Assembly (NCBI GenBank): GCA_003647065.1
Contig: QMMC01000011.1
Span: 1-36,002, forward strand
Source of the DNA: Deltaproteobacteria bacterium
GTDB lineage: Bacteria; Myxococcota_A; Polyangia; Polyangiales; B10-G4
Direction of reading: 5' to 3'
DNA length: 36,002 nucleotides
Under the pieces are notes generated by a model that was not told where the DNA came from, searched no databases, and was given only the letters and a program-made list of their open reading frames with translations. A program made the position numbers and the translations under genes. Shown piece after piece: positions 12,394-36,002 of the stretch; position 1 is the stretch's first letter; each line of letters begins with the position of its first letter.

Positions 12394-13086
12394 CTACTCC
12401 GCGGGGTCGGAGGGCGGATCTCCGAGGAGCGTCGGGATCTTCAGCGCGTTGTGACGTCCGTTTTCTGGCGTGTCTGCGCCCTCGGATGGCTGTTCGGCTT
12501 GAGGAGCATCGCGGTCACTGCCGAAGATTTGCGGGGTCTTCAGCGCGTTGTGACGTCCGTTTTCTGGCGTGTCTGCGCCCTCGGCGGTCGGATCCATCGG
12601 CGGCGGCGGGAAGACCGGGGGCGGCGCGTTCGGATCGACGGGGTCCGCGTTCACGTCCGGGTCGACCGCGTCCGGATCCACCGCGTCCGGATCGACCAGC
12701 GTGTCGTCCCGAAGATCATCGGGCCCGGAGTTGGGGTCGTGGCGCATGAAGACCCCACCATCCCGATAGACCTGGAAGTTGTTGTTGTTCGGGTCGGCGA
12801 CGTTGGCGGACATGCACGCGTTGCAGAGGCCGCAGGTGAGGGCCACGAGGACCGAGGGGATGAGGGCGACGACGCTCACGATGATCCCGCCCGTAGCGGC
12901 CCCAGCGGGTTGCCCTTCGGCCTTGGCCCGGCTGAGGGCGATGCCCCCGGTGATCACCCCCGCGAGGCCGAGGAGCGGCGCGGCGAAGGAGAGCACGGTG
13001 CCCAGGAAGGGAACGAACGAGAGGAAGAAGCCCCCGAACATGAAGAGCAGGCAGAGGACGCCGAGGATGATCGAAGCTATGCCCAT
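12394..13086 (-). CDS. DUF4190-like membrane protein with low-complexity and repeated C-terminal tail
   Basis: MGIASIILGVLCLLFMFGGFFLSFVPFLGTVLSFAAPLLGLAGVITGGIALSRAKAEG resembles DUF4190; tail VDPDAVDPDAVDPDV and twice EGADTPENGRHNALK. Confidence 0.78.
   Translation of the reverse strand: MGIASIILGVLCLLFMFGGFFLSFVPFLGTVLSFAAPLLGLAGVITGGIALSRAKAEGQPAGAATGGIIVSVVALIPSVLVALTCGLCNACMSANVADPNNNNFQVYRDGGVFMRHDPNSGPDDLRDDTLVDPDAVDPDAVDPDVNADPVDPNAPPPVFPPPPMDPTAEGADTPENGRHNALKTPQIFGSDRDAPQAEQPSEGADTPENGRHNALKIPTLLGDPPSDPAE
12438..12584. repeat. Perfect 48-bp direct repeat (12438..12485 and 12537..12584), 99-bp period, in frame
   Basis: Both copies read tcttcagcgcgttgtgacgtccgttttctggcgtgtctgcgccctcgg. 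Confidence 0.95.
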
Positions 13087-13119: not shown

Positions 13120-14232
13120 TCATTCGCTGGGCAACACGCCGAGATGAGTGAGCAGGGTGCACGTCGCAGCGCGCTTCTCCGGCGCCCGAGTCAGGAGACC
13201 AAATCCGTGACCGGCGCCCTCGAGCTCGATGTAGGTAACAGGTGATGCAACAGCGCGCAGCGCGCTGACCATGGCCCGGGCCTGGCCCGCCTGGAGGACG
13301 ATGTCGTCCGTGCCGTGCACGACCAGCCCCGGCGGGTCGGCGGCGTCGACGTGGGTGATCGGCGAGGCGAGGGCCGCATCGCCTCCGCCGAGGAAGGCGT
13401 CGACGACCCGGCGCGTGGGCACCGAGTAAGGGGCCTCGGGGCGCATGTCGAAGGCGCCGAAGTACGCGACCCAGGAGTCGACCCGGGGCGAGGCGTCGAT
13501 GGTGCACGAGCCGTCGTCGAGGGCGTCAGCGTCGGCGGCGGTGCCGAGGAGCGCCGCGAGGTGGCCGCCGGCGGAGGCTCCGACGGCGACGACGCGTTCG
13601 AGGTCGAGGTGGTGTTCTTCGCCGTGGGCGCGCAGCCAGCGCACGGCGCAGCGCACATCGGAGACCGCTGCCGGGAAGGGGTGGCGGGGGGCGAGGCGGT
13701 AGTCGAGGCTGGCGGCGGCGACCCCGTGGCTCGCGAAGAGGCGCCGGACCCGGGCGAAGTCGTCTTTGTCCCCGCCGCGCCAGCCGCCTCCGTGGATCAG
13801 GACGGCGACCGGGTGGGGCCCCGGTCCGTCGGGTACGGAGAGGTCGAGCTCGAGGGTGCGGCCCGGGGCCCGGACGTAAGGCTGGTCCAGGAGCTCGTGG
13901 GTTGGGCGGCTCCGGTCGATGCCCCGGGGCAAGGCGCACTCTTCGACTCGGCGGGGCGGGGCCCGAGGGGGGGCCTCCGGGGGCGTCGGTCCCAAGAAGG
14001 CGAACGGGCGACGTGAGTCGACGGGAGCCGGGATTGGGACCGGAGGCTCACCGGGGACGACGGGGACGACGGGAGCATCGGGGCCCGGCGGGGCCGGAAC
14101 CACAGGCTCGGCGGCGGCTGGTGCTTCCGGGGGCGCCGGGGCCGGGGCCTCGGCCTGGGGGACCGAGCCGGCGTCACAAGCGCCTATGAAAAGTGGGGCG
14201 AAGAGGACTACCCGGAGAACTACCGAAGGCAC
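13120..14232 (-). CDS. Alpha/beta hydrolase (esterase/lipase, HGGG type) lipoprotein
   Basis: VPSVVLRVVLFAPLFIGACDAG lipobox (GTG at 14232); VAVLIHGGGWRGGDKDDF, SLDYRLAPRHPFPAAVSDVRCAVRWL, VAVGASAGGHLAALL. Confidence 0.88.
   Translation of the reverse strand: MPSVVLRVVLFAPLFIGACDAGSVPQAEAPAPAPPEAPAAAEPVVPAPPGPDAPVVPVVPGEPPVPIPAPVDSRRPFAFLGPTPPEAPPRAPPRRVEECALPRGIDRSRPTHELLDQPYVRAPGRTLELDLSVPDGPGPHPVAVLIHGGGWRGGDKDDFARVRRLFASHGVAAASLDYRLAPRHPFPAAVSDVRCAVRWLRAHGEEHHLDLERVVAVGASAGGHLAALLGTAADADALDDGSCTIDASPRVDSWVAYFGAFDMRPEAPYSVPTRRVVDAFLGGGDAALASPITHVDAADPPGLVVHGTDDIVLQAGQARAMVSALRAVASPVTYIELEGAGHGFGLLTRAPEKRAATCTLLTHLGVLPSE
13987..14047 (-). repeat. Copy 1 of a dispersed 61-nt repeat with 9-bp terminal inverted repeats around a 56-bp core
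   Basis: Reverse complement matches 35793..35853 at 57/61 positions; core 13987..14042 begins cggtcccaa and ends ttgggaccg. Confidence 0.9.
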
Positions 14233-33464: not shown

Positions 33465-33671
33465 ACCTCTCCGATGCCAGAAGAGTGGGTTTCGTTACAA
33501 GGGTAAAGGAGCAGACCGGCCCCGGGGCCCCGCTCACACGGCCATTTGCCGATGCCGGGCGCATCTGTCAGAAGACGACCGTTTCCCGTAGGGGGGTCGA
33601 GGCGCTCAGGGGTACTGCGCCATCGATCTCGGGCCGAGCCGCCCTGCCCCACCGACCGATGTGAGTCACGA

Positions 33672-35765
33672 ATGCTCTTTCCGACCCAAGACACTCTCCG
33701 CCTGCTCTCGATCTCCCTGCTCGCGATCGGCCTCCTCGGCACGAGCGCCGGTTGCTCGGAACGCGAAGGCGGCCCTGATGCAGCCTTCCCGGACACCGGG
33801 GCCGGAGACGGCGGCGGAGGCATGTGCGCCGATGGCACGCGCAACGGGACCGAAACGGCGATCGACTGCGGGGGGGACGCCTGCGGACCCTGCCCCGACG
33901 GGTCCGGTTGCGTACGGGCCACCGATTGCCTGAGCAACGCGTGCCGATCGGGGTTCTGCCTCGTCGCGAGCTGCACCGACGGAACGCTCAACGGTAGCGA
34001 GTCGGACATCGACTGCGGCGGGACCTGCACCGGCTGCCTCGGCGGCAAGGCGTGCGGCGCCGGCACCGATTGCCTGAGCAACGATTGCGTGGACGGGGCC
34101 TGCACGATGTCCAGCTGCGAAGACGGCGCCCTGACCAACGACGAGACCGACGTCGACTGCGGCGGCCCGGTCTGCCCCGACTGCGACGGCGGCGAGGGCT
34201 GCCTGGTCGATACCGACTGCATCAGCACCATCTGCAACCGCGGCACCTGCAGCTCGGCGAGCTGCACCGATCGGGTGCAGAACCAGGACGAGTCGTCGGT
34301 GGACTGCGGCGGCGCAGCGTGCGACGGCTGCCGCGACGGGTTCTCGTGCAGCACCGGTGCGGACTGCGCGAGCAACGCCTGCATGGGCGAGGTCTGTATC
34401 TCCTGCGTCGACGGAAGAATGAACGGCGACGAGACCGACGTCGATTGCGGCGGCGCGACCTGCGGCCCATGCAACGATGGCTCGATGTGTTCGGCCAACG
34501 CCGACTGCGTCGGCGATCGCTGCCTCGACGGGAGCTGCATCTCTTGCGGCGATGCCGTCATGAACGGCGACGAGACCGACGTAGACTGCGGCGGCGCGAC
34601 CTGCGGCGGCTGCGCCGACACCAAGATGTGCGTCGCCGATACGGATTGCACCGGCATGCTTTGCGTCGGCGGGAGCTGCATCTCTTGCACGGACAGCATC
34701 ATGAACGGTGCCGAGACTGACGTAGACTGCGGCGGCACCCTCTGCGGCGGCTGTGCCACCGGCGAGATGTGCGTCGCTCCGACGGACTGCCTCAACAGCA
34801 TCTGCACCAGCGGCGCCTGCGTCGCGCCGGCGTGTGACGACGTGGTGATGAACCAGGACGAGAGCGACGTCGACTGCGGCGGCGCGACTTGTGATGGCTG
34901 CACGCCCGGCGACACGTGCACCGCGGGCTCCGACTGCGCCTCCGGCGTATGCGACGCCGGCGTATGCGTCGCGCCCACCTGCACCGACGGGGTCACCAAC
35001 GGCGGCGAGACCGACCGCGACTGCGGCGGCAGCACCGCCTGTCCGCGGTGCCCGGACTTCCGGCTCTGCGATGGACCGAGTGACTGCACCAGCGCCGAGT
35101 GCACCACGGGTGTGTGCGGCGATGTCGGCTGCATACCCTTCCGCGACGCCGCGGGGGACCCCATCGTCGACACCTTCGGGTACTTCGGCTGCAGCCTTCC
35201 CCTCACCCCGGCCACCCTCCCGTGCCCAGACATCTCGACGACGGGGACCTCGACGACCCTCGGCGACGACGGCGAACTCGAGCTGCCCCTCGGTTTCAGC
35301 TTCGACTATTACGGCACGGCCCGGACGATGGTGACCCTCTCCTCGAACGGGGCCCTCGCCTTCGATACGACCTCGGTCACCTTCTCGAATGCGTGCTTCC
35401 CGCGCACCACGTCGCCCGAGGAACTCATCGCCGTTTTCTGGGACGACCTCGACCCCGGCAACCCCGGCAGCAACGTCTGGTACGAGACCGTCGGCACGGC
35501 CCCGAACCGCCGCTTCGTCGTGCGCTGGGACACCGAGCACTTCTCGACCAGCCCCGATCGCGCCGTCGTCACGGTCGTCCTCGAAGAGGGCACCAACGAC
35601 ATCAAGGCCTGCTACCACGACACCAACTTCGGGGACGCGAGCTACGACGATGGCGTGACCGCGACCGCGGGCATCAACGGCGACGCCGGCATGTCGTCAC
35701 TGCAGTTCAGCTGCAACACCGCGACCCTGACGGATGGCCTCTACCTCCAGTACTTCCACCCCTAG
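33672..35765 (+). CDS. Surface lipoprotein with nine about 46-50-aa, 8-Cys repeats and a C-terminal beta-sandwich-like domain
   Basis: LRLLSISLLAIGLLGTSAGC lipobox; repeated CxDGxxNGDETDVDCGGxxCxxCxxGxxCxxxxDCxxxxCxxGxC; C-terminal FGYFGCSLPLTPATLPCPDI...VVRWDTEHFSTSPDRAVVTVVLEEGTNDIKACYHDT. Confidence 0.88.
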   Translation: MLFPTQDTLRLLSISLLAIGLLGTSAGCSEREGGPDAAFPDTGAGDGGGGMCADGTRNGTETAIDCGGDACGPCPDGSGCVRATDCLSNACRSGFCLVASCTDGTLNGSESDIDCGGTCTGCLGGKACGAGTDCLSNDCVDGACTMSSCEDGALTNDETDVDCGGPVCPDCDGGEGCLVDTDCISTICNRGTCSSASCTDRVQNQDESSVDCGGAACDGCRDGFSCSTGADCASNACMGEVCISCVDGRMNGDETDVDCGGATCGPCNDGSMCSANADCVGDRCLDGSCISCGDAVMNGDETDVDCGGATCGGCADTKMCVADTDCTGMLCVGGSCISCTDSIMNGAETDVDCGGTLCGGCATGEMCVAPTDCLNSICTSGACVAPACDDVVMNQDESDVDCGGATCDGCTPGDTCTAGSDCASGVCDAGVCVAPTCTDGVTNGGETDRDCGGSTACPRCPDFRLCDGPSDCTSAECTTGVCGDVGCIPFRDAAGDPIVDTFGYFGCSLPLTPATLPCPDISTTGTSTTLGDDGELELPLGFSFDYYGTARTMVTLSSNGALAFDTTSVTFSNACFPRTTSPEELIAVFWDDLDPGNPGSNVWYETVGTAPNRRFVVRWDTEHFSTSPDRAVVTVVLEEGTNDIKACYHDTNFGDASYDDGVTATAGINGDAGMSSLQFSCNTATLTDGLYLQYFHP

Positions 35766-35792
35766 CGCCAAGGGCGCCCACTCACGCCATTC

Positions 35793-35853
35793 GCCTCCGG
35801 TCCCAATCCCGGCTCCGGTCGACTGGCGTCGCCCTTTCGCCTTCTTGGGACCG
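35793..35853 (+). repeat. Copy 2 of the dispersed 61-nt repeat, intergenic
   Basis: gcctccggtcccaatcccggctccggtcgactggcgtcgccctttcgccttcttgggaccg; core 35798..35853 with perfect 9-bp terminal inverted repeats. Confidence 0.9.
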
Positions 35854-35877
35854 GCTTACGTCCTCGGGGCTGACCTC

Positions 35878-35919
35878 GAAATACCTTTGGTATTCCTTCG
35901 GCCCGCCCCTGTGGGGGCG
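35878..35919. other. Two adjacent short intergenic inverted repeats (hairpin candidates)
   Basis: aatacc-ttt-ggtatt (35880..35894) and cgcccc-tgtg-ggggcg (35904..35919). Confidence 0.5.
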
Positions 35920-36002
35920 CTCGGCGACTGACGCAAGTGGACGCCCTTGGCCCCACTGAGCGCGCCGAGGATTTGGGGACGCGTGGTTGCTTAATTGTCT
36001 TA

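Follow-up and report, generated by a model that had tools for sequence, protein, structure and literature searches.

Background

Small palindromic repeats are common, and their dispersal is poorly understood. The small dispersed repeats of cyanobacteria and the bcr1-type repeats of Bacillus cereus are very small mobile elements with conserved secondary structure, some of which are said to sit within other repeats. REP sequences are described from within other palindromes and as in-frame insertions in open reading frames (PMC3733652), and their recognition involves irregularities of the stem together with a GTAG guide (PMC8266576). RPEs, which are about 150 bp long and mostly intragenic, are inserted in frame in protein genes of Rickettsia (PMC10969869, a review for the length and location).

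The sequence analysed here, referred to as the window, is a stretch of 36,002 nt that comprises the entire contig 11 of a 7.08 Mb genome in 594 contigs, a metagenome bin. A first-pass annotation had noticed two copies of a 61-nt repeat in it. In this one genome, some 100 copies and dozens of corresponding empty sites, together with nesting and co-varying stems, define where the element ends and reveal no target duplication.

Results

Two copies of the repeat in the window

The features of the window were as follows.

13120..14232, minus strand: lipoprotein with an alpha/beta-hydrolase (BD-FAE/Abhydrolase_3) domain, with copy 1 in its Pro-rich linker; orthologues are without the 19 residues
13987..13995, minus strand: copy 1 terminal inverted repeat, one 9-bp arm
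13988..14044, minus strand: copy 1, 57-nt insert, in frame in the coding sequence and adding 19 codons; ends taken from empty sites of other copies, length and frame checked
14034..14042, minus strand: copy 1 terminal inverted repeat, second 9-bp arm
33546..35765, plus strand: Cys-rich repeat protein, with its TAG stop 2 nt before the type A repeat
35768..35950, plus strand: type A palindromic repeat interrupted by copy 2 and 126 nt long once copy 2 is removed; supported by the predicted empty junction, which was found, and by the fold
35796..35852, plus strand: copy 2 of the hairpin, 57-nt insert
35970..36002, plus strand: third dispersed repeat (TTGGGGACGCGTGGTTGCTTAATTGTCTTA), start only, cut by the contig end

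Realignment within the window reproduced the original match: the reverse complement of 13987-14047 was identical to 35793-35853 at 57 of 61 positions, in inverse orientation, and in both copies CGGTCCCAA and TTGGGACCG form a perfect 9-bp inverted repeat enclosing a 56-bp core. The next best ungapped alignments in the window reached only 30-35 of 61 positions and the genome holds 46 matches, so chance similarity of the two copies was rejected. As had been annotated, copy 1 encodes PPVPIPAPVDSRRPFAFLGP in the Pro-rich linker of the lipoprotein hydrolase and copy 2 is intergenic, 30 nt downstream of a TAG stop. The repeat as such stood, and its extent was refined: judged from the empty sites described below, the inserted unit is 57 nt, TCC-GGTCCCAA...TTGGGACC, so that the inverted repeat borrows a flanking G for its ninth base pair.

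Other repeats were also seen in the window. Positions 1-136 are a dispersed repeat that is 80-96% identical to at least six other places in the genome, and one of its matches lies directly beside a hairpin copy (L217). Positions 12422-12584 hold two 64-nt copies, 91% alike and 99 nt apart, both with CAGCGCGTTGTGACGTCCGTTTTCTGGCGTGTCTGCGCCCTCGG.

Copy number and distribution

When copy 2 was used as the query of a whole-genome sequence search, 46 matches were returned, 45 of them at E <= 3e-5 and two identical to copy 2 across all 61 bases. The central pattern GGTCGACTNNCGTCGCCC matched the host genome 50 times with 0-1 mismatch, and its reversed control nine times with up to 2 mismatches. A covariance model built from 21 copies gave 96 matches at E <= 0.05, some of which belong to a related but longer form, about 91-104 nt in length. 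The genome-wide count that the first-pass annotation had proposed came to about 50 close copies and about 100 in all; a copy density estimated over 835 kb, chiefly of the largest contigs, comes out too low, since the assembly is interrupted at repeats.

The proposed search of relatives covered 183 further genomes within the order and 378 within the phylum and found no copies; no other member of the family appeared among the relatives. One weak, partial BLAST match in an order member looks like chance, as do the isolated single matches from an exact pattern scan across GTDB (no multi-copy genome; records of this genome itself possibly left out). The hairpin had no Rfam match at the gathering threshold.

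Hairpin structure and co-variation of the stems

The repeat is predicted to form a hairpin with an outer stem of 8-9 bp, a middle stem of 2-3 bp and an apical stem with a mismatch, between which lie conserved internal loops with fixed motifs (AATCC..GC / CGCCTTCTT); read on the reverse strand, the loops are rich in purines (GAA/GGA, GAAA/GGA, G.A). The unit measures 57 nt, or 56 nt in another subfamily, with an overall range of 55-57 nt. Folding the core as DNA and as RNA, as had been suggested, predicted a hairpin under both parameter sets, stronger for copy 2 on the reverse strand (-30 vs -24 kcal/mol with RNA parameters, -15 vs -11 kcal/mol with DNA parameters), and co-variation supported it.

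In a 56-copy alignment fitted to the structure, 85 two-sided stem changes were counted, compared with 30 ± 4 after shuffling and no more than 30 in slid controls. An ungapped alignment made without the structure (A2) agreed, with 17 two-sided changes vs 4.6. The outer six pairs scored 4.7 within copies and 2.9 between copies, and none of 10,000 permutations scored as high. Among 54 copies there were 37 distinct outer-arm pairs, complementary within copies and not between them; the arms of the type A repeat, introduced below, likewise scored 13.1 of 15 within copies vs 9.9 between. As the copies are related and not independent, none of these figures is a strict probability. The internal mismatches beside the stems were nearly unchanged across all copies.

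It is conceivable, though on the whole unlikely, that this paired change is mutational and not selective, with template switching during replication perfecting imperfect palindromes, in which case the co-variation would be uninformative on recognition or RNA function. Long palindromes are prone to such templated correction, and co-variation occurs in all three stem-bearing families of the genome. Correction would however be expected to remove the mismatches next to the corrected stems, and these persist almost unaltered in all copies.

In the type A arms (L084-L111) the plus strand has 29 A-C and 4 G-T positions, so the minus strand pairs via G-U; this bias apparently derives in the main from a single inherited column. 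The wobble pairs of the short hairpin have no strand bias (17 vs 23), and G-U strand bias was accordingly rejected as proof of RNA function.

Empty sites and nesting in other palindromes

Copy 2 had been described as intergenic. It is intergenic, but its nesting within the larger palindromic type A repeat (35768-35950) had been missed. Excision of the 57 nt TCCGGTCCCAA...TTGGGACC (35796-35852) predicts an empty type A junction, CGCCATTCGCCGGCTTACGTCCTCG, of which the genome contains 12 exact occurrences, or 28 when up to 3 mismatches are allowed (control 0). For type B, a second palindromic host repeat whose flanks are common to eight hairpin copies, the empty junction was read off one unfilled copy and had 47 matches at up to 3 mismatches (control 0). 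The hairpin was also found within other copies of itself, either at the apical loop (GACTGAC^GTCG; C71:10112 and C239:2335) or just past the middle stem (CCAGC^T; C16:32433 and C313:5800). The hairpin is thus a discrete insert that has entered at least two other palindromic families and its own copies without visible target duplication.

A search for target duplications had been proposed, and none was visible where the empty site could be reconstructed for type A or for coding copy 1; none was seen by eye at the type B and nested sites, although some type B flanks are not identical, varying at a few bases, and their ends are known with less certainty. Insertion sites mostly follow C, often in GCC or AGC, without an established fixed tetranucleotide. 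Within a given host repeat the nested copies keep one orientation, for which we estimate a chance probability of about 0.03 over the distinguishable sites, some of which may share one origin. Many of the copies nested in type A and all those nested in type B may descend from a few insertions carried along by the host repeat.

Tandem arrays were present with a period of 56-57 (C142, C544, C92), and long-form arrays with a period of about 90-104 (C390, C303, C112, C300).

Several further observations concern these repeats. Identical hairpins stand in tandem with period 56 and share CTAG at each junction at L223:4-176 and L224:1475-1584. At L200, L201, L203, L202 and L199, where long-form arrays have a period of about 90-104 nt, the long form carries the internal-loop motif twice along its stem, as if a hairpin had been inserted in a hairpin. 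Type B repeats (AAACAGTGTCG...CTGTTTAG) at L276-L295 occur in a short and a long form, the latter with an additional module that has GCGAGG on either side, as though a duplication had accompanied it. The third repeat, TTGGGGACGCGTGGTTGCTTAATTGTCTTA (window 35970-36002; L084, L085, L103 and others), often follows type A repeats and elsewhere forms inverted pairs about 60 nt apart.

Coding copies and genomic context

A rough screen of GC at third positions places most copies outside reading frames, and only a few of the approximately 75 screened are intragenic. The 57-nt insert of copy 1 starts within a codon and leaves the frame intact after it, with the addition of exactly 19 residues, PVPIPAPVDSRRPFAFLGP, between VVPGEP and TPPEAPP of the lipoprotein esterase linker; this exact fit supports the initial idea that the repeat can be tolerated as a protein linker. 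These residues are absent from the orthologues compared (best identity 46%), which is compatible with an insertion and not decisive, because the orthologue linkers vary in length. At the outset, only two copies in the genome and a conserved linker had been named as pointing to a chance or ancient coding duplication; the copies are many, and the orthologues are without the segment. Copy 1 clearly illustrates how a mobile hairpin can, by its length of 57 nt, keep the frame and supply a secreted enzyme with 19 extra residues rich in Pro.

Elsewhere in the genome, a long-form copy is in frame after the ACP of a PfaA-like synthase, a short copy at C71:13219 seems to occupy a Pro/Ala-rich linker without a domain match, and a further copy lies at the 3' end of a gene in C89. 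Type A repeats start about 10 nt or less after the upstream stop codon in most of 28 loci.

Transposase candidates

The host genome encodes two Y1_Tnp proteins, and no hairpin copies lie within about 1.5 kb of either gene. One of the genes is flanked by an unrelated REPIN-like repeat, GGGGACGGTATAAACTTTCT, and the other has no repeat of the hairpin or host-repeat families nearby. The presence of a Y1 gene with its own REPIN-like repeats shows that a RAYT-like system exists in this genome and does not tie it to the hairpin. No transposase was found between neighbouring hairpin copies, where the intervening genes look ordinary, and no parent insertion sequence was found between or beside the copies examined. 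The Y1 (RAYT-like) gene at L083:1260-2443 is flanked by inverted copies of GGGGACGGTATAAACTTTCTCACTTTC, and L209, L262 and L274 also contain this sequence, there in REPIN-like fashion as close-set inverted pairs.

Discussion

Copies of the hairpin are dispersed through the genome, precisely inserted, nested in other palindromes, changed in pairs along their stems and tolerated in frame. The repeat is probably a member of a lineage-restricted family of small REP/RPE-like mobile palindromes that would be moved by an HUH-type enzyme. The element would travel as a folded single-stranded DNA hairpin and be recognised by its shape and internal loops, not by fixed terminal bases; cutting and joining would be done by a trans-acting HUH enzyme (Y1, IS200/IS605- or RAYT-like) that makes no target duplication. 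A 57-nt form landing in a gene adds 19 codons without a frameshift and is tolerated in a linker. Against this reading stands the finding that no transposase is linked to the family.

A role as a structured RNA or 3'-end mRNA element, kept for transcript folding (ends, stability) and spread by recombination or together with the host repeats, is rather improbable as the explanation of the family, and a role at transcript ends is still a live alternative or addition to mobility. It would account for stem co-variation around fixed internal loops and for type A repeats starting so close to stop codons. It agrees poorly with the absence of an Rfam match and of copies in all relatives searched, with the unbiased wobble pairs of the short hairpin, and with copies at unrelated sites that include coding frames and the interior of other copies.

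Movement as a conventional MITE by the DDE transposase of a parent insertion sequence is very unlikely. Small size, non-coding sequence, terminal inverted repeats and high copy number are what would be expected of such an element, but the reconstructed sites are without target duplication, the terminal repeats vary between copies and no parent element was found between or beside the copies examined. Of the two names first given to the repeat, a small non-autonomous REP-like mobile element is therefore upheld, by some 100 copies, empty sites, nesting and the in-frame insert, and MITE is not supported, since no target duplication was seen, the ends differ between copies and co-vary within each, and a parent insertion sequence was not found. 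By eye, the 3' junction TTGGGAC/TTGCCGAC has no GTTRRRY, and an integron attC site was rejected. Misjoining of repeats in a fragmented metagenome bin, suggested by the 594 contigs, the many copies near contig ends and the scarcity of copies in large contigs, is scarcely credible, because copy 1 and several nested copies lie well inside contigs, and the junctions are precise and recur many times, with copy 1 in frame.

Returning to the mobile palindrome, we tentatively raise a further possibility, itself doubtful, that it represents a distinct class of mobile hairpin. Such a class would be read by its internal-loop architecture while its terminal stems drift freely as long as they pair, and its one-orientation insertion into palindromes, by an enzyme making no target duplication, would build hairpins within hairpins (short, long, type A, type B).

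Comparison with known systems

REP and REPIN sequences, associated with RAYT (TnpA_REP) and tagged by GTAG or CGTC (PMC3733652, PMC8266576, PMC3116915), are close in kind: they too are short, high-copy palindromes of one lineage, found in few species, often near gene 3' ends and sometimes in other palindromes or in-frame reading frames, with irregular stems. They differ in size, with 20-40 nt (20-50 nt as a length criterion for REPs) vs 55-57 nt for the hairpin and 91-104 nt, or roughly 100 nt, for its long form, although the hairpin fold is likewise predicted and supported by co-variation. Furthermore, the hairpin has no constant terminal tetranucleotide: no GTAG or CGTC tag was found beside it, the flanking columns of the 56-copy alignment being variable at both stem feet. 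Its outer stem is variable yet paired around fixed internal loops, and no RAYT gene is linked to it.

RPEs resemble it as in-frame palindromic inserts that add a short peptide to a protein product, and in-frame gene insertion was found here for copy 1 (19 codons added) and the PfaA-like case. In contrast to RPEs, the hairpin is 57 nt long and has most copies outside genes, a few of about 75 being intragenic, and its sequence and host are judged unrelated by description. MITEs (PMC10969869, PMC6382973) share its small size, non-autonomy, terminal inverted repeats and dispersal, whereas the hairpin shows no target-site duplication, its ends differ from copy to copy and no parent insertion sequence came to light. 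Single-strand transposition of the IS200/IS605 type would fit the lack of duplication and the constant nested orientation, as a likeness in working and not in membership; the sites, mostly after C, show no established fixed tetranucleotide. The hairpin family works like REPs and RPEs. With no GTAG/CGTC tag, no visible target duplication and no ends conserved between copies, it is filed with neither REPs nor MITEs, nor is it filed as an RPE; we therefore call it a new small mobile palindromic repeat.
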